Assembly (NCBI RefSeq): GCF_000009365.1
Contig: NC_008260.1
Location: 1,895,501-1,959,500 of the forward strand
Reading direction: 5' to 3'
DNA from: Alcanivorax borkumensis SK2
Lineage (GTDB): Bacteria; Pseudomonadota; Gammaproteobacteria; Pseudomonadales; Alcanivoracaceae
Length of the DNA: 64,000 bases
The notes beneath the pieces were generated by a model. It was not told where the DNA came from. It searched no databases and saw only the letters and a list, made by a program, of their open reading frames with translations. Positions 1 through 15,635 of the stretch are shown here, in pieces; within the stretch, counting starts at the first letter, position 1, and every line of letters begins with the position of its first letter. Position numbers and translations under genes: made by a program.

Positions 1-16
1 AGGGCTGGGAAACAGG

Positions 17-43
17 AACCCCAACTACCCAACGGGGTTTTTT
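17..43 (+). terminator. Rho-independent terminator of an upstream gene
   Basis: AACCCC and GGGGTT form a six-pair stem around an 11-nt loop, followed by a T-rich tail. It would end a rightward transcript entering from outside the window. The stem is short, so strength is uncertain. Confidence 0.5.
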
Positions 44-101
44 ATTTGCCATACTTTAATCTATCATCACTCAACGACGTGCTAACTACTGGCAGATTCT
101 T

Positions 102-1226
102 ATGACAGCCGATGCAAAACGCGAGCATATTCCTCTAGAGCTGTTATTGCTCGACGAAAAAAACCCACGGTTTGGCAACCATGGACAAAAACTAGTTAGT
201 CAAACAGAAGTTCTCGATCATATTGTCAGCACTTTTAGTGTAGAAGATGTTTTAAGCTCTATTGCTGTAAATGGTTTCTTCGAAGCTGAACCACTAGTTT
301 GTGTTGGCCCTAACAAAAAGGGAGAATTTACCGTTGCCGAGGGCAACCGCAGACTATCGGCTTGCTTAATTTTAGCTGGCGATGAAAGAGCCAAAAACTG
401 GAAACGAAAGACAGAAGAATACCAGAAAATCCATGAAAAACATGGATCAAAAGCTTTCGATCCTGTGCCAGTAACTGTTTTCTCTGCAAACAATTCAGAT
501 AAAACCCTTCTTTCCTATCTGGGTGTGCGCCACATAGCCTCTTCTCAGCAGTGGGATTCCTATGCTAAAGCCGTCTGGATTGCAAACGTTATCCAAGAGG
601 GAGAAATTGATGTAAAAACAGTGGCAGAGATGATCGGCGACAAACATCAAACAGTTTCAAGATTACTTGAAGGCTACTATTTCATAAGACAGCTAGAAGA
701 TGAAAATCAATTTATCCCCTCAAACTCTCAAAGAAAAGGACGAGGCAGCAACACAACTTATCCATTTTCATGGGTCTACACTCTTCTTGGGTATGCATCT
801 GTTAGAGATTTCCTTGGATTGAATGACTCCAAACCAAGAGAAAACCCCGTTGAGCGTGAGAAAATTAATAATGCATCCTTGCTTGTCTCGGCAATGTTTG
901 GAGACAGATCAAAAGGCAAAGATTCTGCGCTGAACGATTCGAGACAACTCAGTACTCTCGCGAAAGTGGTTTCTGATCCAGAAAAAATTTCCTTGCTTAG
1001 AAATGGCAAAAAGATTGATGAAATTATCAAAGCAACCCAGCCTATTGATGAAAGGTTAGGAGATGGGCTGCTGGAAGCGCAGTCATCTTTAAGAGACATA
1101 TCCTCTAGGCTTATGGAGGAGGATATTTCATCTGAAATTGCAGAAAAACATAAGCCCGCAGCAAGCAAAGTTTCCAAACTAGCATCCTCTGTCTTCAACA
1201 AATTACAAGAAATATCCGATGAGTAG
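102..1226 (+). CDS. ParB/Srx-like N-terminal domain protein
   Basis: A 374-residue protein whose first ~130 residues look like a ParB/sulfiredoxin-fold domain: a 'lLLDEKNPRF' opening, then 'VAEGNRRLSA', the EGNRR signature at about residues 80-84. In this superfamily the motif binds or cleaves nucleotides or DNA. Around residues 165-190 'VAEMIGDKHQTVSRLLEGY' resembles a ParB-type helix-turn-helix. The C-terminal half is not recognised. The stop overlaps the start of the next gene by 8 bp (ATGAGTAG), so the two are translationally coupled. Base composition is AT-rich compared with the rest of the window, which suggests transfer. It is probably not the chromosomal partitioning ParB, because no parA is nearby; a role in a defence or modification module is inferred from its neighbours. 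Confidence 0.75.
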   Translation: MTADAKREHIPLELLLLDEKNPRFGNHGQKLVSQTEVLDHIVSTFSVEDVLSSIAVNGFFEAEPLVCVGPNKKGEFTVAEGNRRLSACLILAGDERAKNWKRKTEEYQKIHEKHGSKAFDPVPVTVFSANNSDKTLLSYLGVRHIASSQQWDSYAKAVWIANVIQEGEIDVKTVAEMIGDKHQTVSRLLEGYYFIRQLEDENQFIPSNSQRKGRGSNTTYPFSWVYTLLGYASVRDFLGLNDSKPRENPVEREKINNASLLVSAMFGDRSKGKDSALNDSRQLSTLAKVVSDPEKISLLRNGKKIDEIIKATQPIDERLGDGLLEAQSSLRDISSRLMEEDISSEIAEKHKPAASKVSKLASSVFNKLQEISDE

Positions 1227-2172
1227 AAGATCCACTCATGACGATCGAAATCGTCACTTCACCTTTTCCCAGAATGCTGACGAAACTGAAATCCAGGCTT
1301 TCCTTGATGGTGCCGCCCACATCGAAGCAGGAGTTCGTGATGAACTTATTGCTGATGCTCTTGACGATTTTGGCCCAAGTGACATTGGCGGGCCAGAAGA
1401 GCAGAGGATGGAAAGATTTGAAGCTGAAGATTTAGCATTAGACGAAGCAGCGGGGTCTACCCTCGAAGAGATTCAGGATCGCAACGAAATACTTGGCGAG
1501 CTGTATCCTTTCAAACTGAACGGCAACACCCTAGAGTATACGCCCTCACAAAATGGCGTTTACGAACTTCTATTGTCGATTTCTAACCTTCAAAATTCTG
1601 GAGAACAGGGTTCACTTTTTGAAAGAACAGCAACACAAGTCGCATGTAGAGTTTTAGGCCGCAACTCAAAAGCTTGGCATACTGGATGGCCGCGGTCCAA
1701 CGGTCAGCCCAAAAGAATTAAGGAGCTTTATTCAAACATCAATAGCGAGACAGGTGAGTTTCACTGGGGACCAGAGGCTGGGTTTCCAGAAGACCCGCCT
1801 CCAAGAGACGAAAAGGACTGTGGAATTGATATTATTGTCCAAAGAAAACTGGATGAATCAAGAATTGGCAATCTATTTTTGTTTGGACAATGTGCATGCG
1901 GCAATAACTGGGACTCTAAACTGGAAGAAGCAAACCCATCGACAAAACTCGCCCGATACTTCAGAACAGTTACTTATGCCCCTCCAATTATCGCGATTTT
2001 CGTGCCTTTTTGCTTGTCACAGTTTTGGATAAATGAAACTGCCAGACAAAAAGTTTTGGCATTCGATCGTCTTCGCATGGTTCAAATCTCTAACGACCTT
2101 GATGATGAAATTCCGGAGTGGCTGCATAGAGATAGAATTTTGGAGAAAGCCAAAGAAATAGCTTCGCAATAG
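1219..2172 (+). CDS. Predicted PD-(D/E)XK-like nuclease
   Basis: A 317-residue protein that I cannot assign to a named family. The N-terminal ~95 residues are acidic. The middle has a pattern like Mrr-type endonucleases: 'LFERTATQVACRVLG' (helix with a Glu), then 'DCGIDIIVQ' (Asp on a strand), then 'FLFGQCACGNNWDSK', where a Gln on the next strand replaces the usual Glu and a Lys follows several residues later. This suggests a PD-(D/E)XK fold with a relocated lysine. It overlaps the ParB-like gene by 8 bp and runs tail-to-tail, 3 bp apart, into a DNA cytosine methyltransferase gene. Context and motifs suggest the restriction component of a modification-dependent system. AT-rich like its neighbours. 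Confidence 0.6.
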   Translation: MSRRSTHDDRNRHFTFSQNADETEIQAFLDGAAHIEAGVRDELIADALDDFGPSDIGGPEEQRMERFEAEDLALDEAAGSTLEEIQDRNEILGELYPFKLNGNTLEYTPSQNGVYELLLSISNLQNSGEQGSLFERTATQVACRVLGRNSKAWHTGWPRSNGQPKRIKELYSNINSETGEFHWGPEAGFPEDPPPRDEKDCGIDIIVQRKLDESRIGNLFLFGQCACGNNWDSKLEEANPSTKLARYFRTVTYAPPIIAIFVPFCLSQFWINETARQKVLAFDRLRMVQISNDLDDEIPEWLHRDRILEKAKEIASQ

Positions 2173-2175
2173 ACA

Positions 2176-3123
2176 CTAGAGGTAATTTAGCAACTCTTTA
2201 CCGATAACATTAAATAAAGGTGGAGGAACAGCGTTGCCTACCACAGTGTATTTCATCCTCAAACTCGAATTCTCTGTCTCAGGGAAGCAACTACTTCTAT
2301 CAAAACCCTGCAAACAAGCAGCCTCTCGGTATGAATAACGGCGTGCTGGCCCATCACTCTCCCAAACCCATTTATCTGTATGCACCCTCTTAAGTTTAGG
2401 GGAAACAGGATGTAGTGGCATATGCCTTGGGTGACTAACTATAGTTTTAGCCAGCTCATCCCAGCCTCTATACCGATTTCTTGATAAATAGTACCAATGA
2501 AATGTTTCTGTCCAGTAATCCCCCTCAGGCCACAATGGAAGATCACCTATTGCATCACCAATTGTAATTTTATTCTGAATTGCAGTACCATGGGTTGCTT
2601 CAGGAAAAGCAAAAACTTCGCCAAGATCTGACCTAACACCAACAAAAATCAGCCGCTTTCTTTCTTGGGGAACCCCAAAGTCAGAAACATCGATAACTCT
2701 ATAATTAACCCTATAACCTGCGAGTCGGAATTGGCATAGCTGAGAATTTAGAAGATGCCTAAAATCAGACCTTTGCATCCCAGATACATTTTCAACGATG
2801 AAAGCCTTTGGCTTAATTCTCTTTAAGGCTCTAACGAATTCCCTATATAGGTAGTTTACTCCACGGCTTGACTGTCTTGCTCCACCTTGACTAAAACCTT
2901 GACACGGATAACACCCGACAAGCACATCCGCACTAGGAAAAGACTGAATTTCCCTAACGTCAATAACTTGATAATCAGTTTCTGGAAAGTTGGCCAAGTA
3001 GAAGTCCTTTGCATAAGGCAAGATATCGTTTGCCATTAGGACGTCATAGCCCGCTTGGTGAAGCCCTGAATCAGAACCACCACATCCAGTAAATAGAGAC
3101 ACCACCGTTTGCTTTTTCTTCAT
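2176..3123 (-). CDS. DNA (cytosine-5-)-methyltransferase
   Basis: A C5-cytosine methyltransferase of 315 residues with the canonical motifs in order: motif I 'FTGCGGSDSGL' (SAM binding), motif IV 'GCYPCQGFSQGG' with catalytic Cys74, motif VI 'ENV' at 111-113, motif VIII 'QERKRLIFVG', motif IX and motif X 'GNAVPPPLFNVIG'. It transfers a methyl group from SAM to C5 of cytosine in a target that cannot be read from sequence. Length is typical of a small type II modification enzyme with a short target-recognition region (about residues 190-260). It is convergent with the predicted nuclease gene. Together with the AT-rich composition this points to an acquired restriction-modification-like module. 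The start has no strong Shine-Dalgarno sequence. Confidence 0.9.
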   Translation of the reverse strand: MKKKQTVVSLFTGCGGSDSGLHQAGYDVLMANDILPYAKDFYLANFPETDYQVIDVREIQSFPSADVLVGCYPCQGFSQGGARQSSRGVNYLYREFVRALKRIKPKAFIVENVSGMQRSDFRHLLNSQLCQFRLAGYRVNYRVIDVSDFGVPQERKRLIFVGVRSDLGEVFAFPEATHGTAIQNKITIGDAIGDLPLWPEGDYWTETFHWYYLSRNRYRGWDELAKTIVSHPRHMPLHPVSPKLKRVHTDKWVWESDGPARRYSYREAACLQGFDRSSCFPETENSSLRMKYTVVGNAVPPPLFNVIGKELLNYL

Positions 3124-3189
3124 ATATCAACAACTTAGCCAAGTAAAGCAATATCAATGGAAAGGATAACACAGAAATCACCAACGATG

Positions 3190-3447
3190 TCATTGAAGCC
3201 ACACAGCCACACATGAATCGCTTATGCCCCACTCATTTAGAACCTTTTCAAAAAAACCATCCCTCCCACTCCCCGTCAAAAACTGCTGCCTAGCCCTAGT
3301 CATCTCCACATACAACAGCCTGACCTCCTGTCCACTCCTCCACTCCCTCTCCAGATTCTCCTTGTCATCCTTCAAGCCCCCCAGTACCACGGTATCGAAC
3401 CCAAATTCTTTACTGTTTTGCCGAGTGAGTAGTGTGAGCGTAACAAT
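3190..3447 (-). pseudogene. UvrD-type helicase C-terminal fragment
   Basis: About 85 codons resemble the very C-terminus of the intact NERD-UvrD helicase encoded at 9038-10933: 'LLTRQNSKEFGFDTVVLGGL', 'KDDKENLERE', 'EVRLLYVEMTRARQQFLTGSG' against 'LLTRQSSKGLEFDTVVLAGL', 'VRLLYVGMTRARQQLLLTGSG'. The helicase motif V/VI region is altered (SSKGLEFDT becomes NSKEFGFDT) and the 540 residues before it are absent. In this reading frame the sequence upstream is only the antisense or overlap of the DUF2726 gene. It is a decayed, truncated paralogue and not a functional gene. It lies at the edge of the AT-rich module. Confidence 0.75.
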
Positions 3448-3490
3448 GGGCTCAGATCTTGCCCAGAGCATCAACTTAATCCTTTCCAAC

Positions 3491-4201
3491 TCAACACTTC
3501 CTAACTCCCCGACACTTCGGAAACGCACTGCATCCCCAAAACGTTTGCCCCGCCTGTTTTCCAGAGCGCGCTTTTCGCAACACCATCGCCTCACCACATT
3601 TATGGCAAGCTGGTGCAGCAGCTTGAAACCCATCAGTCGTGCCCGCCGAGGGGGCAATGCGCTTTTGCGCTTCTGAATCGGCGGCTTTCTTCAAAGGCAC
3701 CTCACCCGTCCCAGGGAACAGAATCGCCTCAATCTGCTGGCGAATATCCACTACGACATAGCCCCTAGCCGCCCTAATTCTTAACAGCGGCAAGCCAGCC
3801 GACTCACAGGCTTGTTCCAGAAAGGCATCGCGCTTCTGCCGGGAGGCCGAACCATGGCTGGCATCGTCCAGCTCAATGGCCAGTTTTACGGCGCAGTCTT
3901 GTGGGTCGCAGAGGAGAAAGTCGACGTGTTTGGCGGAAATCGGGTTGAAGGCGCGTTGCCAGTTGGACCGGTTGAGGCCTTTTTGCGGGGTGAGCACATC
4001 CGCAACGCGGACTTTAGAGAAAATGAGGGCCTTGTCGCCCACGGCCTGTGTGAGCACGCCGTAGAAGGAGCGTTCGGCCTTGGACAGCAGGTAAGGTTTG
4101 CGGCGATAGCCAAAAGCGGGCGCCCCGCCACCGGGCCGTTTCTGTTGGGCCAGGATCAGCATGACGCCAATGGCAATAACCAGTAGAACGCCTAATTCCA
4201 A
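3491..4201 (-). CDS. DUF2726 protein with topoisomerase-type zinc ribbon
   Basis: A 236-residue protein with an N-terminal hydrophobic stretch (residues 1-19, probable membrane anchor), a DUF2726 domain (about 38-165, with 'LSKAERSFYGVLTQAV', 'HVDFLLCD' and 'AIELDDASH'), and a C-terminal zinc ribbon, 'CHKCGEAMVLRK' followed by 'FWGCSAFPKCRGVRKC', of the type found at the end of topoisomerase I. DUF2726 is related to the VSR/PD-(D/E)XK endonuclease fold; the D...E-x-D pattern around 'VDFLLCD' and 'IELDD' fits this. The start is TTG, chosen for the GGGAGAAG ribosome site just upstream. Likely role: membrane-associated nucleic-acid enzyme, function unknown. It lies directly upstream of the helicase remnant. 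Confidence 0.75.
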   Translation of the reverse strand: MELGVLLVIAIGVMLILAQQKRPGGGAPAFGYRRKPYLLSKAERSFYGVLTQAVGDKALIFSKVRVADVLTPQKGLNRSNWQRAFNPISAKHVDFLLCDPQDCAVKLAIELDDASHGSASRQKRDAFLEQACESAGLPLLRIRAARGYVVVDIRQQIEAILFPGTGEVPLKKAADSEAQKRIAPSAGTTDGFQAAAPACHKCGEAMVLRKARSGKQAGQTFWGCSAFPKCRGVRKC

Positions 4202-9037: not shown

Positions 9038-10933
9038 CTACTGCCCAAACCGGCCAACAAACCAATTCTCACCACTCCCGGTCAGCAATAACTGCTGCCG
9101 TGCCCGCGTCATCCCCACATACAATAGCCGCACCTCGCGCTCCAGGTTCTCCTGGTCGTCTTTCAATCCGCCCAGCCCTGCCAGCACCACGGTATCGAAT
9201 TCCAGCCCCTTGCTGCTTTGCCGGGTAAGTAGCGCCACCCGCTGCGCATTCGCGTCGTAGGCTTTCTTGCTGGCGCTGTTTTTTAACCAGGCATGGGGAA
9301 TGCCTTCGGCGTTGAGGGCTCGTTGCAGAGTGTCTGCCTGCCAGGTGTAACCGTAGATCACCGCAATGGTGTTGAGGGGGCGGCCGCTTTGGTGCCATTT
9401 GTGAATGCAGCGAGCGATGTAGTGGGCTTCGTCGTTGAAGTTGTCGAATTTGCGAAACGCCGGTGGCGGGCCGCTCACACCGGCCACCTCCGGTGCGATG
9501 AGGGGAATGTGGTCGTCGTCGGCATCTTGAGCTTGCAGGAAGTCCTTCGCGAAATCGTAGGCGTAGCTAAGGATTTCGCGGGTGTTGCGGTAATTCAGTT
9601 TCAAAATGGTGGTTCGACCACGGGCCTGAATGCCGGCACTGGACAGGGGAAACTTGAGATTGCGTTTCTTGTAGATGGACTGGGCATCGTCATAGAGCAG
9701 CAGCAGGGAATTGGTGTTCGGGTCGATCATCTGCACAATCAGGGCCAGCCAGTCCTGCTCGAAGTCGTGGCCTTCGTCGATCATCACCGCGCTGTATTGG
9801 GCACGAGGAATCTGATTCTTATCCACGGCCTGTATAACGGTTTCCACCTGCCGTTCCCAGGGTTTTAGCTCTGGTGTGGCGGCGATCGGGTCCACGTTGT
9901 AGGTTTGCATTTGCCGGCCACACCATTCATGGAAGTGGTGCACCTGCACTTTCTCTTCGATGCCCTTTTCGGCAATAAAACTTCGCAGTCGGGCAGCCAA
10001 GGTGATATTGAAGCACAACACCAAAATCGGCTTGGTGACGGCCTGGGCCAAGTGCAGACAACGATAGCCGAGGATCAGCGTCTTGCCAGAGCCGGCCACG
10101 CCATGGATAACCCGGTGGCCATCACCCATGCTCCGGGCCAGCTGTTCTTGCTGCAGGTCCATCACGCGGACAATGTCTGGGATGGTGTTGTAACTTGGCT
10201 GGCTCGCGACCACCGGCTTTCCCTCATTGGCCCCGCCCTGCCCTACCTCTGGTTCATCGTCTTCACCCTCCGCATCGAACAGCCCTTGCTGGGGCGCGTT
10301 TATGCGAATTTCAGGGAATAGATTCCAGCGGATACGATCAATCTGCGGCAGGGTGAGTTTGTCGCCGAAGGTGTATTCGAACATGGCCCATAGCTGCTCC
10401 TGGAACACTTCCGGGTCAATGGTGGCGGTCATTTCATCCCGGCAGATCAAACGGTGTGGGGGTAACACCAGTTCCTGATGCTCCTCACTAATGGCCTCGT
10501 TCCATTGCTTACGGGTGATATTAGGGAACACGACCCCATAGCCCCACGGGAAGCAGAGCTTGCCTTTGTGCTGTGCGCAGGTTTGTTGCAGGTGCGCATC
10601 GCGCTGCAGTTTTTTGATGGCGGTGAGCGCACACTGGCGGGCCTGCTGCAAAGGATTGGTGACGGTCTTCAAACCATCGGAGGTAAAAATCTCCGCATCG
10701 CGGGGCGTGATCGTCTTGAGGGTATCTAGCTTCCAATCTTTTACCTCCAGAAACAGCAAGCCACGGCCGGGATGCAGGATAATGTAATCTGGATAGCGCC
10801 GATTGCGGCCCACCGGTGTGTCGTACCAAACGGTGTAGTCATCCTCTAATAGCGTTTCTAAGCGCTGCCCCAGGCGCCTCTCGCCTTTCGTCATGCCACG
10901 CAGGGTGCTGAGGTTGGGTATAACGGTGGCCAT
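9038..10933 (-). CDS. NERD-domain UvrD/Rep-type DNA helicase
   Basis: A 631-residue fusion. Residues ~15-120 form a NERD nuclease-related domain with the PD-(D/E)xK pattern 'PDYIILHPGRGLLFLEVKDWK' (Asp49, Glu63, Lys65). A superfamily 1 helicase follows: Walker A 'GVAGSGKT' at 278-285, Walker B 'VMIDEGHD', motif IV/V 'LTRQSSKGLEFDTVVLAGL' and motif VI 'VRLLYVGMTRARQQLLLTGSG'. It probably unwinds DNA in repair or defence with a linked nuclease activity. The ATG is 5 bp after the stop of the upstream exported-protein gene, suggesting co-transcription. A degenerate copy of its last ~85 codons lies at 3190-3447. Confidence 0.9.
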   Translation of the reverse strand: MATVIPNLSTLRGMTKGERRLGQRLETLLEDDYTVWYDTPVGRNRRYPDYIILHPGRGLLFLEVKDWKLDTLKTITPRDAEIFTSDGLKTVTNPLQQARQCALTAIKKLQRDAHLQQTCAQHKGKLCFPWGYGVVFPNITRKQWNEAISEEHQELVLPPHRLICRDEMTATIDPEVFQEQLWAMFEYTFGDKLTLPQIDRIRWNLFPEIRINAPQQGLFDAEGEDDEPEVGQGGANEGKPVVASQPSYNTIPDIVRVMDLQQEQLARSMGDGHRVIHGVAGSGKTLILGYRCLHLAQAVTKPILVLCFNITLAARLRSFIAEKGIEEKVQVHHFHEWCGRQMQTYNVDPIAATPELKPWERQVETVIQAVDKNQIPRAQYSAVMIDEGHDFEQDWLALIVQMIDPNTNSLLLLYDDAQSIYKKRNLKFPLSSAGIQARGRTTILKLNYRNTREILSYAYDFAKDFLQAQDADDDHIPLIAPEVAGVSGPPPAFRKFDNFNDEAHYIARCIHKWHQSGRPLNTIAVIYGYTWQADTLQRALNAEGIPHAWLKNSASKKAYDANAQRVALLTRQSSKGLEFDTVVLAGLGGLKDDQENLEREVRLLYVGMTRARQQLLLTGSGENWFVGRFGQ

Positions 10934-10938
10934 GGTAA

Positions 10939-11520
10939 CTATCGCTCCCAGCTCATGGTGACCCCATAGGCTTTGCCATCAATCTGCAAGGAGGAATATT
11001 GAAGCATGAGCTTGTCGCCACTTTTTTGCTGCCACTGAACCAGTGGCAGCGTCTCCTCTATGTCCTCTTTCCCGTCCAACCACAAAACGAGCCTCGCCAT
11101 CCAGCCGAGATTAAAAGCATTAAATGATGGATCTCCAAATTCTGCCTCTATTGCTGCTTGATGGGTTTTAAAGAAAACCTTTTGGTGCTCCTCGTTATTG
11201 AACCAGACTCCGTAATAAACCAACGAGATACGGTCTTCGCCGCATTGATACCCAGTCACTTCAGAACGTTCCGGGGTGTCGCGGTAAAACGCCAGAAGTT
11301 CGTGCTCCAGCATCGTGTGCAGAGGGAAGTCAGCCTCCGCTCCCCTGTCAATTTCCATTTCATAGGTTTCAAGACAGGAATCACCGGGTGAGACACCAAG
11401 GAACAGGGCTGAATGGGCAAACGGAGAGCACAGGAGTATGCACAGCATGGAGAACGTTCGGCATTGCTGAGGGGTAATCCGGCAGATTGTCTGCTTCTGC
11501 GTTCTTCGGAATAAAAGCAT
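10939..11520 (-). CDS. Predicted exported protein of unknown function
   Basis: A 193-residue protein not recognised. The region near residues 25-42 ('MLCILLCSPFAHSALF') is hydrophobic and ends in a signal-peptidase-like site. The reading frame starts at 11520 with GAGGG just upstream; starting at Met25 (11448) would give a cleaner signal peptide but has no ribosome site. Two cysteines ('DSCLE', 'YQCGEDRIS') could form a disulfide. It ends 5 bp before the helicase gene, and repeat copy B lies just upstream. The start is uncertain. Confidence 0.65.
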   Translation of the reverse strand: MLLFRRTQKQTICRITPQQCRTFSMLCILLCSPFAHSALFLGVSPGDSCLETYEMEIDRGAEADFPLHTMLEHELLAFYRDTPERSEVTGYQCGEDRISLVYYGVWFNNEEHQKVFFKTHQAAIEAEFGDPSFNAFNLGWMARLVLWLDGKEDIEETLPLVQWQQKSGDKLMLQYSSLQIDGKAYGVTMSWER

Positions 11521-11580
11521 CCTGCCCTCATTGCTTTATTGCCCACCATCCTGGCAGGCTCATTATTATTAACCGCGTTT

Positions 11581-11692
11581 TATTTGTGCTTCAGTTCCGA
11601 ATGTACACGACCTTACGGCGCAAATAAATGAATACGATTCAGGATTTTGATTCTGGTGTGCGCAAGAGAAATCGACGCAAAGGGCCGCGCCC
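11581..11692. repeat. Diverged intergenic repeat, copy B
   Basis: Second copy of the element at 4333-4432, with shared blocks GAATGTACAC, GGCGCAAA, AAATGAATA and TTCAGGA in the same order, spacing and orientation. It lies 60 bp upstream of the exported-protein/helicase operon. The two copies share roughly 70% of bases over the best 65 positions by eye. Confidence 0.6.
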
Positions 11693-11734
11693 CTGAGACG
11701 CAGCCACATGCCGTTCGCAGAGTGGCCTCTTATC

Positions 11735-12604
11735 TCACGATGCTTTTGCTTTGATCTGCCAGCAGGCAGCGTTGAATTTCACGGTATCACCGAACACAAA
11801 AGGCTCGAAGGCTTCTCTGACCACCGTAATAAGCTGTGCTTGGGTTTTTTCATCCAGACCGGGAAGAATGCGACCGAGCGGGCCGATGCGGGTGAAAAAA
11901 CTCACCAGCTCGGTCTCGGGGAACGCACATTCGAAATCCAGCGGTTCAATGCTGATGTCGTGCCAACCTGCTGATTCAAGAATGCTCTCTACCCGTTGGG
12001 GGTCTGCAAATGCAAACTGCCCGGGCGCGTTCCGGTCTTGTTGCGGCAAGGTGACGATAGACTTGGCCGCCCGGCCAGCGGTAGTCATAAAGGGGGTTTC
12101 TTTCGGGGAGCGCCAGGAAAAAAACAACGCCGTGGCCTCTTTGCTAGCGGCGCGCCTGAGGTTTTGAAAGGCCCGCACGGGATCTTCGAAAAACATGATG
12201 CCAAAACGCGACACCAGCATGTCGAACAAGCCTTCTTGGAAATCATAGCGGGCGGCGTCGGCGCAGATAAACTCTGGGCCGGGTCCTTCCTTGTCCGCAC
12301 CATCCTGCTCACTACCCTGTCGTGCGGCGTCGATCATTACCTCGGACACGTCCACGCCGGTGGCATAGCGCCCTTCTTGGGTATGGCGATGAATCGTGCG
12401 GGTTGTGCCACCGGTACCGCAGCCTATATCAAGAACATGGCGCGGGGATTGGGCCTGCACCGCTTCGGCCAGCAGCACTTCGATGGGCTTGAACAAATGA
12501 TCAATCAGCTGCTGGGAAGCTACCCAGTTGCGCCCACCCATGGTTTTCCACAACGAGGACGGGTCTTCGGCTGTGTCTACAAATGTGGCGACAGGCTTAC
12601 TCAT
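11735..12604 (-). CDS. SAM-dependent class I methyltransferase
   Basis: A 289-residue Rossmann-fold methyltransferase. Motif I is 'HVLDIGCGTGGTTRTI' (SAM glycine loop) near residue 60, followed by 'ATGVDVSEVMIDAAR' (acidic residue binding the ribose), 'PEFICADAARYDF' and 'FDMLVSRFGIMFFEDPVRAFQNLRRA'. It resembles the UbiE/COQ5-like small-molecule methyltransferases (Methyltransf_25/11). The substrate is unknown. A GGAGAG ribosome site precedes the ATG. It lies 135 bp downstream of the sodium-channel gene on the same strand; no functional link is evident. Confidence 0.85.
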   Translation of the reverse strand: MSKPVATFVDTAEDPSSLWKTMGGRNWVASQQLIDHLFKPIEVLLAEAVQAQSPRHVLDIGCGTGGTTRTIHRHTQEGRYATGVDVSEVMIDAARQGSEQDGADKEGPGPEFICADAARYDFQEGLFDMLVSRFGIMFFEDPVRAFQNLRRAASKEATALFFSWRSPKETPFMTTAGRAAKSIVTLPQQDRNAPGQFAFADPQRVESILESAGWHDISIEPLDFECAFPETELVSFFTRIGPLGRILPGLDEKTQAQLITVVREAFEPFVFGDTVKFNAACWQIKAKAS

Positions 12605-12739
12605 GTTTACTCTCCGGCGTTCGGTCTCGGTTTATTTGTCAGCGAGCCACTTCACGTCGAGGTCACCTCAACTGAACAGCCCAGAAGACAACCGTGCACG
12701 ACTCACAGAGCCGCTCCATGATAGGTAAATCGCCAACCT

Positions 12740-13591
12740 TTACTGGCCGGCCTTGCCCTGCTGGGCAGCTTCCAGCGCCACAATTTTTGCGTGCATTGCG
12801 CGCATAAGATCCAGCATTTCCTGGCGCTCATCGTGGGCAATCAGATTATTGGCTTCCCGCTCTGCACGCTGCTCGCTCTCATGTACTTCTTGGGTCGCGC
12901 TCACAATGATGGCAATAAACAGGTTGAGCACCATAAAGCTGGAAATGAGGATGAAGGGCACGAAGAAGATCCACGCTAGGGGATACACCTCCATAACAGG
13001 TCGGGCGATCCCCATAGACCAACTTTCCAGGGTCATAATCTGAAACAGGCTATAAATGCTGGCGCCCAAGCTGCCAAACCACTGCGGAAACGCTTCGCCG
13101 AACAGCTCGGTGCCCATCACTGCAAAGATGTAGAACATCATCAGTAGCAGCGCTGCGGTCCAACCGATACCGGGCAAGGCTTGCATCAAGGATTCCACCA
13201 GCATGCGCAGTCGTTTCACCGATGACAGCAGGCGCAACACCCGCAGGATGCGTAAACTCCGCAAGATAGCCAACGGCCCTGAGGCTGGCGTCAGGGAGAT
13301 AGCGACGATCAGAAAGTCAAATACGTTCCAACCGGAACGGAAAAAGCGCGGACCAAAGGCCACCAACTTGAGTGCAATTTCCAGCGTGAAGGCGAACAAA
13401 ATCACTTGGTTGACCAAGGTCAACCACTGCCCTACTCGCTCTTGCGCTACTGAGGACGTTTCCACTCCAAGAATAATGGCATTCAGGAGAATCAACGCGG
13501 TGATGCTATTCGCGAATAACGAAGAATTAAGCCAAGCACTCAGACGCTGGCGCCAAGCATTAGCGGGTACGGAGGAAGGCGTAGCCTGCAT
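12740..13591 (-). CDS. NavBac voltage-gated sodium channel
   Basis: A 283-residue, single-domain six-helix channel that would act as a homotetramer in the inner membrane. S1-S4 cover about residues 28-131; the S4 voltage sensor is 'ILRSLRILRVLRLLSSVKRLRML' split in regularly spaced arginines. The pore loop holds the selectivity filter TLESWSM at 187-193, the signature of Na+-selective bacterial channels. S6 ('MVLNLFIAIIVSATQEV') leads to an acidic neck and a C-terminal heptad coil ('LMRAMHAKIVALEAAQ'), as in NaChBac and NavAb. Such channels occur in marine and alkaliphilic bacteria. It appears monocistronic. Confidence 0.93.
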   Translation of the reverse strand: MQATPSSVPANAWRQRLSAWLNSSLFANSITALILLNAIILGVETSSVAQERVGQWLTLVNQVILFAFTLEIALKLVAFGPRFFRSGWNVFDFLIVAISLTPASGPLAILRSLRILRVLRLLSSVKRLRMLVESLMQALPGIGWTAALLLMMFYIFAVMGTELFGEAFPQWFGSLGASIYSLFQIMTLESWSMGIARPVMEVYPLAWIFFVPFILISSFMVLNLFIAIIVSATQEVHESEQRAEREANNLIAHDERQEMLDLMRAMHAKIVALEAAQQGKAGQ

Positions 13592-13708
13592 GGAAAATCA
13601 CCGAAAAACTCAAGGAGCGGCGAGTATACCTGATGCAGGGCCAGTGATTGACACCGACACGCGATGAAGGAGGGTCTTCACCGCCATCGAAAGCCCCCAA
13701 AGGGAGCT

Positions 13709-14122
13709 TTACCGGTGCAGGCTAAATTGCATCCAGACTGCCAACCCCAAACCCCAAGCCGCATTCACGATTAAACCGCCCACGACCTTGGTGGCATTCA
13801 CGTCCAATCCTTTCATAGGGAAAACCAGCAACATGGCCACCAGGGTCGGGCCAATGGCGCCAATAATCATGGCGCTAAGCCAAAATTTGATACCCTGCCA
13901 GCGGCGAATGATCAACCATACGGGCAAACCCCAAACACCCCCCCAGAATGCCAGAGAGAGCACTTGAGGAATGCCCAACGGCGGCACGGGCGTCATGTTC
14001 CAAGGAAACGTGGGGATAAGGCCGCCCAACCAAAACAATGCGAGGACGCCTTGATGGAACAACAGGGTGGCAATAAATCCACCGGTGAAAGCCTGCAGCC
14101 ATTGTTGTTTGGTGTTGGTCAT
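13709..14122 (-). CDS. Small integral membrane protein, unknown function
   Basis: A 137-residue hydrophobic protein with about four membrane helices (near residues 9-34, 52-70, 80-103 and 112-132). I do not recognise the family. Positive residues ('IIRRWQG') follow the second helix. A GGAGACCCCC site precedes the ATG. It lies 117 bp upstream of the channel gene on the same strand, and a shared transcript is possible but not shown. Confidence 0.65.
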   Translation of the reverse strand: MTNTKQQWLQAFTGGFIATLLFHQGVLALFWLGGLIPTFPWNMTPVPPLGIPQVLSLAFWGGVWGLPVWLIIRRWQGIKFWLSAMIIGAIGPTLVAMLLVFPMKGLDVNATKVVGGLIVNAAWGLGLAVWMQFSLHR

Positions 14123-14340
14123 GGGGGTCTCCGTCGGGTTGCGCTATCGAGCAGATGCCGATTAGCGGATAGACGCTAGCATAGCCCACAACGTAGCGAC
14201 GTGAGCGCCATAACCCTTCTTTATTGCACTCGTTATTACTTCAGGGGCGGTTGAAGCTTATATCTTAGAAGAGGCAACACACCCACAGGGCATGAAGGCG
14301 TTTTTTTGCGGGAGCTTAGCCATAACCCAGAAAACAAAAA

Positions 14341-14358
14341 CCCCGGGCAAAGCCGGGG
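14341..14358 (-). terminator. Hairpin terminator for leftward transcription
   Basis: CCCCGG and CCGGGG form a six-pair stem with a six-base loop. On the minus strand it is followed by a T-rich tract. It would end transcripts coming from the remnant at 14572-14867. Confidence 0.55.
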
Positions 14359-14571
14359 TAAACGCAGAAGCAGCAACAGAATTTAATTCTCGTGTTCGAC
14401 GTAGCGAAGGTACAGAAAACGGCTTTTTGAAGACCCTCGCTGAGCCCCCCCCCAATACCATCAGAATAGATCACCAGAAGAGAAACCGTTATTTCCACCT
14501 ACAGCATCGTCAAAGCATTGCCTGTTATATGCCCAACGTCTGTAAGCCTCATCGTATTTTCCCATAGGAAT

Positions 14572-14867
14572 TTAACTGTTCGTGGAGCTGGCAACCTTGT
14601 ACACACCGGCATCTGAGTCACCGCCGATGGCAAACGGGGGCGCGGGGAAATAACAAGAAAAGCCATCAATCGCGCATCATCCTCTAACGGATAAAAACTC
14701 GAAGAGTTCGGCCACGAGAAGAGGCCATTCGCAACGGGGTATTGGCTTCCCTGCTTGGTCGTGACGGCGCTTATATCCTGAAGGGAAGAATACCCACCGC
14801 ACCCTGGTAGTAAGCTGCCATTCGGTGATTTAGCTGTGGCGGTTTGCAATGCAACCTGCGCACTCAC
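14572..14867 (-). pseudogene. Frameshifted remnant of a small exported-type protein
   Basis: Two overlapping frames on the minus strand read as one protein. The first ('GSLLPGCGGYSSLQDISAV' then 'LFSWPNSSSFYPLEDDA') runs from about 14867 to about 14670; the second ('IDGFSCYFPAPPFAIGGDSD' then 'AGVYKVASSTNS') ends in TAA at 14572. A one-base shift near 14668 joins them. The N-terminus is unclear, with no good start or ribosome site. The composition and the Cys pair suggest an exported protein. A terminator on the same strand follows. A sequencing error instead of true decay cannot be excluded. Confidence 0.45.
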
Positions 14868-14978
14868 TGGGAGCCTGCGCCTTTCTCGGCGGCGAACCCG
14901 CCAACGAACAAACCCGCCCAGCCTGAGCCATTCACTTAGGTGCGCCTAACAGGCTCACCGAAGCCCTAAGTTTACGGT

Positions 14979-15635
14979 ATGCTCCGCCTGTCGCAGCCGG
15001 ATATTTCAGATATGCCAACCACACAACCACCACTCAATGACCTTGCCCACGTGTTCAGCCGGGCCTTTTTTCATGACCCACTGTTTGAATACTTTTTTGC
15101 GGACCCGTCGCAACGGCAAGCACTGGCGTTCTTCACTTTTCGCTTTCTGGTCGCCCATGCTCGCCACAACGGTCAAGTAGACACCACGCCGCAGCCTGTC
15201 GATGACCATAATAGCCTTAATGGCGCCGCAGTCTGGTTGCCCTCGTCAGCCATTGAACACAGCGTAATTGATATGTTGCGTTTTGGTGCGGTGCGGGCGT
15301 TGTTCAAGCAAGGCCCCGGCGCCATAAAACGCCAAATGGTGGCTGCAGATGCCATGCAGGCAGTGCACCACCGGGTTCTCACCACCCCGCATATGTACCT
15401 GCTACTGCTGGGTATTGATCCCTCGCAGCAAGGGCGCGGGCTGTCCACACCGCTACTGCAACCCTCGCTAGACCTGTTCGATCAGCAAGGCTTGCCCTGC
15501 TATCTCGATACCCATAACCCGAACAATGTTTCTCTGTATCAACGGTTTGGGTTTGAGGTAGTGCATGAGGGCGATATCCCCGGCACGTCGGTACAACACT
15601 GGGCCATGTTGCGGCAGTGCAAATCGCGCGCCTAA
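14979..15635 (+). CDS. GNAT-family N-acetyltransferase
   Basis: A 218-residue protein with the GNAT acetyl-CoA-binding core in its C-terminal half: 'YLLLLGIDPSQQGRGLSTPLL' (motif A, with the pyrophosphate-binding QGRG) and 'LDTHNPNNVSLYQRFGFEVV' (motif B). The N-terminal half ('AFFHDPLFEYFFAD') is typical of the COG0454/COG3153-like acetyltransferases. The acceptor is unknown. Start 14979 or 15012 (Met12) are both possible; neither has a strong ribosome site. It is convergent with the zinc operon. Confidence 0.8.
   Translation: MLRLSQPDISDMPTTQPPLNDLAHVFSRAFFHDPLFEYFFADPSQRQALAFFTFRFLVAHARHNGQVDTTPQPVDDHNSLNGAAVWLPSSAIEHSVIDMLRFGAVRALFKQGPGAIKRQMVAADAMQAVHHRVLTTPHMYLLLLGIDPSQQGRGLSTPLLQPSLDLFDQQGLPCYLDTHNPNNVSLYQRFGFEVVHEGDIPGTSVQHWAMLRQCKSRA

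Follow-up and report, generated by a model that had tools for sequence, protein, structure and literature searches.

A ParB-fold protein, a predicted nuclease and an exchangeable DNA methyltransferase: a candidate restriction-modification-type defence system in Alcanivorax borkumensis and in prophages

A 64,000 nt stretch of the Alcanivorax borkumensis SK2 chromosome (contig NC_008260.1, positions 1,895,501 to 1,959,500; hereafter 'the window') opens with three intact genes, spanning positions 102-3123, that coincide with a dip in GC content. These encode a protein predicted to adopt a ParB fold (A), a predicted nuclease (B) and, convergent with both, a C5-cytosine DNA methyltransferase (M). 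A preliminary description, made from the sequence alone, had proposed that they form an undescribed restriction and modification module. Comparison with other genomes and with predicted structures indicates that the trio is real and conserved, not an artefact, and a candidate for an often prophage-borne defence system: a putative new form of restriction-modification, kin to the named system PD-lambda-5. Its methyltransferase partner is exchangeable, being a C5 enzyme in the window and a D12 adenine or N6/N4-type enzyme elsewhere.

The island and its three proteins

The open reading frames (ORFs) lie where the preliminary description had placed them, the first two overlapping and the third convergent (Table 1). 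The eight bases shared by A and B are likely to couple their translation, and M, on the minus strand, ends 3 bases from the end of B. The island is AT-rich, as had been claimed, with a GC content of 0.42-0.44 in the first three 1-kb segments of the window against 0.487-0.604 in the other 61; the dip, at ~12,000-15,300 of the extract L002, corresponds to window positions ~1-3300. Long relatives of each gene occur in other Pseudomonadota, in viral contigs and in one contig from Acidobacteria (L005), and the three are therefore more than chance ORFs. Relatives of A alone number at least 1355. B has one match in the host genome (3.12 Mb, single contig).

Searches of the Protein Data Bank (PDB) with sequence profiles found no credible relative for A or B, and predicted folds were consequently needed for both. 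No Pfam-A family matched A at E<=1, while ParB_N was reached weakly by two of its relatives (0.034 and 0.026, under the cut-off of that family); weak matches to ureidoglycolate lyase and Csa3 in NCBIfam, and to CdvB and Rep68 in the PDB profile search, were dismissed as chance. The predicted structure of A, when compared with solved structures, comprises a ParB nucleoside triphosphate (NTP)-binding fold and a ParB-type DNA-binding domain, the repressor KorB being the top Foldseek match; within residues 130-297, KorB, Noc, ParB and Spo0J all match through their DNA-binding domains. A therefore resembles ParB, Noc, KorB and PadC in its predicted fold and in possessing the GxxR P-motif, here the EGNRR to which the preliminary description had drawn attention. 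The loop NGFFEAEP is probably equivalent to ParB Box I, judging from alignment with the host ParB. By contrast, the partner gene of A is B and not a ParA, its C-terminal ~60 residues are predicted to form two long helices, and the ENxQR motif, which is needed for hydrolysis of cytidine triphosphate (CTP), is not conserved: ENIQR of the host ParB stands against an invariant RHI region in A, in a part of the alignment that is weak and gapped. The nucleotide bound by such proteins is not reliably predictable from sequence or by AlphaFold3, according to the accessible text of Kaljevic et al. (PMC12704722). We infer that A may be a nucleotide-dependent loader or switch.

The preliminary description had staked its proposal on a nuclease fold in the 317-residue protein, and the model of B (AlphaFold2; mean pLDDT 89.0, pTM 0.87) is predicted to contain a PD-(D/E)XK, or restriction-endonuclease-like, domain, nearest to MspJI. 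This resembles the catalytic domains of MspJI, AspBHI, FokI and Nt.BspD6I, although only the catalytic domain is matched and the Lys of the QxK motif has moved in 32/34 aligned B sequences. The Asp, Gln and displaced Lys noticed earlier were recovered in the alignment: D204 and Q224 are nearly or entirely invariant (Table 1), and exactly one of K226, the canonical QxK position, and K234 is Lys in 34/34 sequences. Hence the catalytic Asp, Gln and Lys of the superfamily are all present, with K234 the presumptive acting Lys in most members and K226 in the remainder. Two B proteins, L078 (1372-2304) and L081 (5287-6342), have Lys at 226 and lack K234, and both have a D12 methyltransferase upstream on the same strand. 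At E<=1, nothing in Pfam, NCBIfam or PADLOC matches B itself. Of six relatives compared with Pfam at E<=1, five had no match and the sixth (L010) one at a chance-level 0.21, and three more had none at E<=0.1; PADLOC models were likewise absent from the six (E<=1) and the three (E<=0.01), and PHROGs returned unnamed families only for B and its relatives. A weak sucrase-isomaltase match in the PDB profile search was dismissed as chance.

Restriction or nicking enzymes account for 11/12 of the top structural matches of B, several being versions of one enzyme. This bears on the proposal that the system acts by abortive infection, with A and B sensing that a phage has removed or altered methylation, whereupon B kills the cell through cleavage of DNA or RNA; given the nature of these matches, and as nothing points to an RNA target, we consider that proposal unlikely. 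The structural neighbours also include MspJI and AspBHI, both of which cut at modified cytosine (the AspBHI structure is titled modification-dependent), as might be expected were A and B a Type IV-like nuclease directed against foreign methylated DNA, with M incidental. The ParB-fold protein GmrS, a component of a Type IV system in the accessible text of PMC4619093, would fit the same idea. It nevertheless seems exceedingly improbable, as the adjacent C5 enzyme would create targets in the DNA of the host itself, and the MspJI match is confined to the C-terminal part of that enzyme (chain residues 271-439).

The assignment of M as a C5-cytosine methyltransferase was upheld by its match to PF00145 (Table 1), as well as to TIGR00675 (4.7e-52) and to the PADLOC model PDLC00027 (DruM2/DruM; 1.5e-108). 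On account of the last label we considered whether M might be a mere DruM or Dcm-like orphan, yet in the same search neither A nor B matched any further Druantia model. The nearest solved structure is M.HaeIII (4.9e-39), with an alignment of nearly full length in which the stretch FHWYY-SRNR..W..-RH..LHP of M lines up with SRNR.R.W.E.A.T....R...LHP. This stretch is nearly unchanged across 23 distinct M sequences, SRNR, W221, T227, RH and LHP being identical in 23/23. The one gap at the catalytic PCQ motif presumably belongs to the short, 223 aa ORF found in genome G125. The HaeIII site is GGCC, and one might guess from the likeness of the target-recognition regions that M recognises something similar.

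Table 1. Genes, motifs and domains of the island, in window coordinates
Feature	Position	Strand	Detail
Gene A, ParB-fold protein, 374 aa	102..1226	+	PHROG phrog_3694 (function unknown)
A residues 57-64, NGFFEAEP, putative ParB Box I (C-motif) loop equivalent	270..293	+	N57, G58, F60, E63 and P64 identical in 43/43
A residues 80-84, EGNRR, P-motif (GxxR, Box II)	339..353	+	Identical in 43/43; aligns with GERR of host ParB
A residues 171-191, ParB-type helix-turn-helix	612..674	+	Aligns with helix-turn-helix of host ParB
Gene B, predicted nuclease, 317 aa	1219..2172	+	PHROG phrog_14650 (function unknown)
Overlap of A and B, 8 bases	1219..1226	+	ATGAGTAG
B residues ~109-310, predicted PD-(D/E)XK domain	1543..2148	+	
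B D204, putative catalytic Asp	1828..1830	+	34/34
B Q224, Gln of QxK position	1888..1890	+	33/34; Ala in L080
B K234, putative displaced catalytic Lys	1918..1920	+	32/34
Gene M, C5-cytosine DNA methyltransferase, 315 aa, convergent with A and B	2176..3123	-	PF00145, 1.2e-59
M residues 206-244, target-recognition region (SRNR..W..RH..LHP)	2392..2508	-	Lines up with M.HaeIII
M PCQ motif (catalytic Cys)	2899..2907	-	22/23 distinct M, one gap

Conservation of the trio in genomes and prophages

Co-occurrence of the three genes in other genomes, on which the proposal had also been made to depend, was seen widely, in viral contigs and reference genomes alike. A scan of viral contigs with A identified 12, all of which (12/12) have B directly downstream and then M, which is co-directional in L040 and convergent in the other 11. 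A scan with B identified 10, six of them common to both, and all 16 contigs of the union carry A, B and M, the M of L029 being truncated by the contig end. Four named genome contigs found with B all harbour A and B, three with a convergent M. The fourth, L006 from Palleronia, has no adjacent methyltransferase and carries a different C5 gene ~2.8 kb away; in this locus (9066-12986) A and B are followed by two further proteins, which we take to be TniQ-like and Vsr-like, and then by the C5 gene, perhaps a displaced or substituted partner. Similarly, the 10.8 kb surrounding A and B on a Neorhizobium plasmid (L055) contain no annotated methyltransferase, and none was noticed by eye, no formal search being made.

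Searches with B of three overlapping sets of 398, 369 and 385 reference genomes found matches in 11 distinct genomes. A lies directly upstream on the same strand in 11/11, and the next gene to the pair is a DNA methyltransferase in 11/11, in three gene orders. These are four C5 enzymes, convergent in G000, G125 and G569 and co-directional in G1072, where the enzyme belongs to another C5 subgroup; five D12 adenine enzymes, convergent in G250, G176 and G831 and upstream and co-directional in G713 and G826; and two N6/N4-type enzymes (PF01555), downstream and co-directional in G071 and G979. Class was assigned by Pfam for 8/11 and the window, and by a custom M profile for G125 and G569. The Type II arrangement of a methyltransferase beside a nuclease is thus found in all 11 genomes with B, the window included, and is absent from L006 and L055. 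Repeated replacement of the methyltransferase by unrelated enzymes fits a functional need for one.

In a phylogeny of 39 A heads, 20 with C5 partners form one clade together with L006 (support 100/99), and seven with D12 or N6/N4-type partners form another (98/94), inside which both classes are mixed. Three heads with Wphi-type C5 partners (see below), and that of L079, with the other kind of C5 partner and accompanied by L055, stand apart; the branches of this tree are long, and only the two supported clades are relied upon.

Mean pairwise identity over 105 pairs is 0.61 for M, 0.43 for A and 0.36 for B. This order is consistent with, though it does not prove, M and A being bound to a site and B being a faster-changing effector. 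Weighing against the three genes acting as one system, the identities of A, B and M correlate only modestly with one another (Spearman 0.34-0.43). The same figures bear on the role of A. C proteins act as transcriptional regulators of Type II systems, and it could be supposed that Type II-like, site-specific cleavage is the work of B alone, A being only a regulator in the manner of C proteins or of the repressors KorB and DndB. The ParB-type DNA-binding domain, the best match of A being the repressor KorB, and the convergent orientation of M, which could require a timer, are all compatible with such a role. However, A is more conserved than B, its Box I and II residues are invariant, and the PD-Lambda-5 model names met in PADLOC searches describe a ParB-headed protein and a D12 enzyme only, which suggests that in that system the head forms part of the effector. 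Furthermore, the presence of A beside B at every B locus of which the neighbourhood was read argues against a nuclease acting without a nucleotide-binding partner. We therefore judge a purely regulatory A to be improbable.

The trio is also found in Escherichia coli. A 3150-base query from a viral copy (L034) matched 225 of 5426 E. coli genomes, with the whole trio at >=99% in 37 and a partial match in 188; the 33 partial matches that were listed all lie over the methyltransferase. In strains BEN2908 and SCU-109, the trio lies between the replication endonuclease and portal genes of a P2-like prophage. The accessible text of Vassallo et al. (PMC9519451) describes this position in P2 as a defence hotspot harbouring tin, old and further defence systems, while the accessible main text of Rousset et al. 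2022 on hotspots (PMC9122126) mentions neither ParB nor a methyltransferase. Divergent trios in the same order are present in phage Wphi (orf98, orf96 and mth), vB_EcoM-12474III, Pseudomonas phage D14A and E. coli W, the last being one of the genomes matched in part by the L034 query. Mean identity between the three phages and the main group is 28% for A, 26% for B and 64% for M (45 pairs). A tblastn search of annotated phages with the L034 B found nothing, and these three were reached through A instead.

Many phages carry orphan methyltransferases, which raises the question of whether M might be a counter-defence enzyme by which a prophage protects itself, with A and B an unrelated pair sharing the locus. 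The A and B pairs of L006 and L055, which have no methyltransferase adjacent, could be cited in favour of this, as could the predominance of partial matches in E. coli, although E. coli W, at least, proved to have a divergent whole trio. Retention of a methyltransferase beside A and B in 11/11 genomes, despite the change of class, makes it very improbable in our estimation.

Relatives among named defence systems

The nearest named system is PD-lambda-5, which shares with the trio a ParB-like head containing EGNRR. A matches the PD-Lambda-5_A models with its N-terminal part only (up to 2.9e-15; for instance, residues 7-156 to 5-152 of 440), whereas end-to-end matches are given by three control loci, L023, L024 and L028 (6e-255, 9.3e-244 and 3.7e-164). 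The window hence contains neither the full-length PD-Lambda-5_A (about 430-510 aa) nor the D12 methyltransferase PD-Lambda-5_B, having a short A, a separate nuclease gene and a C5 enzyme where PD-lambda-5 has a longer A, a D12 partner and no B. However, five A and B pairs lie beside a PF02086 gene, and all four of those genes that were compared with PADLOC match PD-Lambda-5_B (L060, 7.9e-121; L081, 7.2e-101; L059, 6.7e-86; L080, 5.6e-83), by which the module can be recognised as kin of PD-lambda-5. A broader search with A matched 17/398 genomes, five strongly and 12 weakly; of five weak matches compared with PADLOC, three match PD-Lambda-5_A end to end and two (L018 and L026) in part. The A proteins of L056, L057 and L058 match end to end, and that of a similar locus, L064, in part; in these four loci A is 438-506 aa long, a gene with D12 motifs is adjacent downstream (D12 by Pfam in L056, by motif in L057, L058 and L064) and the custom B profile finds nothing. 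Set against the A and B pairs, such PD-lambda-5 loci indicate that the same reader head occurs in two or more effector arrangements. According to the accessible text of Vassallo et al. (PMC9519451), PD-lambda-5 was selected experimentally as a phage defence, in a host with the mrr region deleted, and is called a prophage version of RM+Abi (restriction-modification with abortive infection); of the phages tested, every one except a single phage was affected in its plating or in the size of its plaques. At another locus, L062 (6182-8135), an A-like ParB protein is followed by an Mrr_cat nuclease (PF04471, 7.9e-7) in place of B; no methyltransferase was noticed by eye nearby, no formal search being made.

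A second relative is PDC-M38, an uncharacterised PADLOC candidate, the name of which was not found in the literature searched. Residues 6-348 of A align with the first half of the 715 aa PDC-M38A (9.7e-15), and orf98 of Wphi matches it at 9.2e-25; the second half has no match in A, and B has none to PDC-M38A at E<=1. More distant parallels are found in the GmrSD Type IV family (GmrS/DUF262 with GmrD/HNH, including BrxU, SspE and TgvAB), in which, in the accessible texts of PMC4619093 and PMC11411939, a ParB/Srx-fold part is likely to sense DNA and the nuclease is controlled by nucleotide; for BrxU and SspE, the N-terminal domain is likely to sense DNA modification (PMC11411939). The nuclease in that family is of the HNH type and not PD-(D/E)XK, and neither DUF262 in A nor DUF1524/HNH in B was found, neither protein having a Pfam match at E<=1; moreover, GmrSD knows foreign DNA by its modification, whereas A and B travel with a methyltransferase, such that self is marked. 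Type II systems with a C5 methyltransferase, of the HaeIII kind, share the convergent nuclease and C5 genes and an M that aligns through the target-recognition region. They differ in that here a ParB-fold partner lies directly upstream of the nuclease at every B locus with its neighbourhood read, and B has no sequence match to any solved restriction enzyme. The earlier view of the combination as undescribed hence stands in part: no description of the trio was found in the literature searched, supplementary tables, subscription papers and REBASE being beyond reach and perhaps already listing it, but it has named kin in PD-lambda-5 and the candidate PDC-M38.

The surroundings of the island offer a second defence candidate, a 631 aa NERD and UvrD helicase protein (9038-10933) matching PADLOC model C3a187 (NERD+UvrD) at 6.9e-162. 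Directly beside the island, a minus-strand ORF (3190-3657) appears as a remnant of a UvrD-type helicase C-terminus (0.0035), with 67% identity to the end of this intact gene (195 aligned columns), and the island may thus adjoin a decayed copy of it. Just beyond the island (3491-4201) is a DUF2726 protein with a topoisomerase-type zinc ribbon, which has one match in the genome. Integration at a tRNA gene was considered and rejected: L002, which extends 12 kb beyond the upstream edge of the island but no more than ~1.4 kb beyond the downstream edge, contains no tRNA, and flanking direct repeats are not above chance. A promoter scan found fewer sites than in shuffled sequences.

A proposed mode of action

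The kinship with PD-lambda-5, the position in the P2 defence hotspot, the conserved trio, the predicted folds and the either/or lysine together support A, B and M being a defence system, and we consider it probable that they constitute restriction-modification-type phage defence comprising a ParB-fold reader, a cutter and a self-marking methyltransferase that can be re-paired. M would, as is typical of its family, methylate its site in the cell's own DNA. A would bind that site when unmethylated and, probably with nucleotide bound, recruit or activate B, which would then cleave the DNA through its predicted PD-(D/E)XK site, with the Lys moved eight residues past the QxK position. The association of A and B with other methyltransferases may mean that these then define self. 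The GmrSD family offers a precedent for a ParB-fold sensor controlling a nuclease by nucleotide. More tentatively, A might operate as a ParB-type nucleotide switch: having loaded where its site lacks methylation, it would be brought by NTP into another state and perhaps become a sliding clamp that takes B along or licenses it. On this view the same head has been joined to several effectors (B, a nuclease of the Mrr type, or the PD-Lambda-5_A C-terminal part) and to three or more methyltransferase classes; this we hold to be possible but doubtful.

If the proposal is correct, the ParB fold, known for its part in chromosome partitioning, would also provide the reader in a family of modular restriction-modification systems. 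This family ranges across Pseudomonadota, one Acidobacteria contig and prophages, and occupies the P2 defence hotspot, with A and B listed as of 'unknown function' in PHROGs. PD-lambda-5 would gain relatives that encode reader and cutter separately, making the two roles separable, and the copy in E. coli W and phage Wphi renders the system directly testable. Should the ParB-type switch prove true, it would represent a new restriction-modification architecture and, to our knowledge, the first case of a ParB clamp serving to tell self from non-self.

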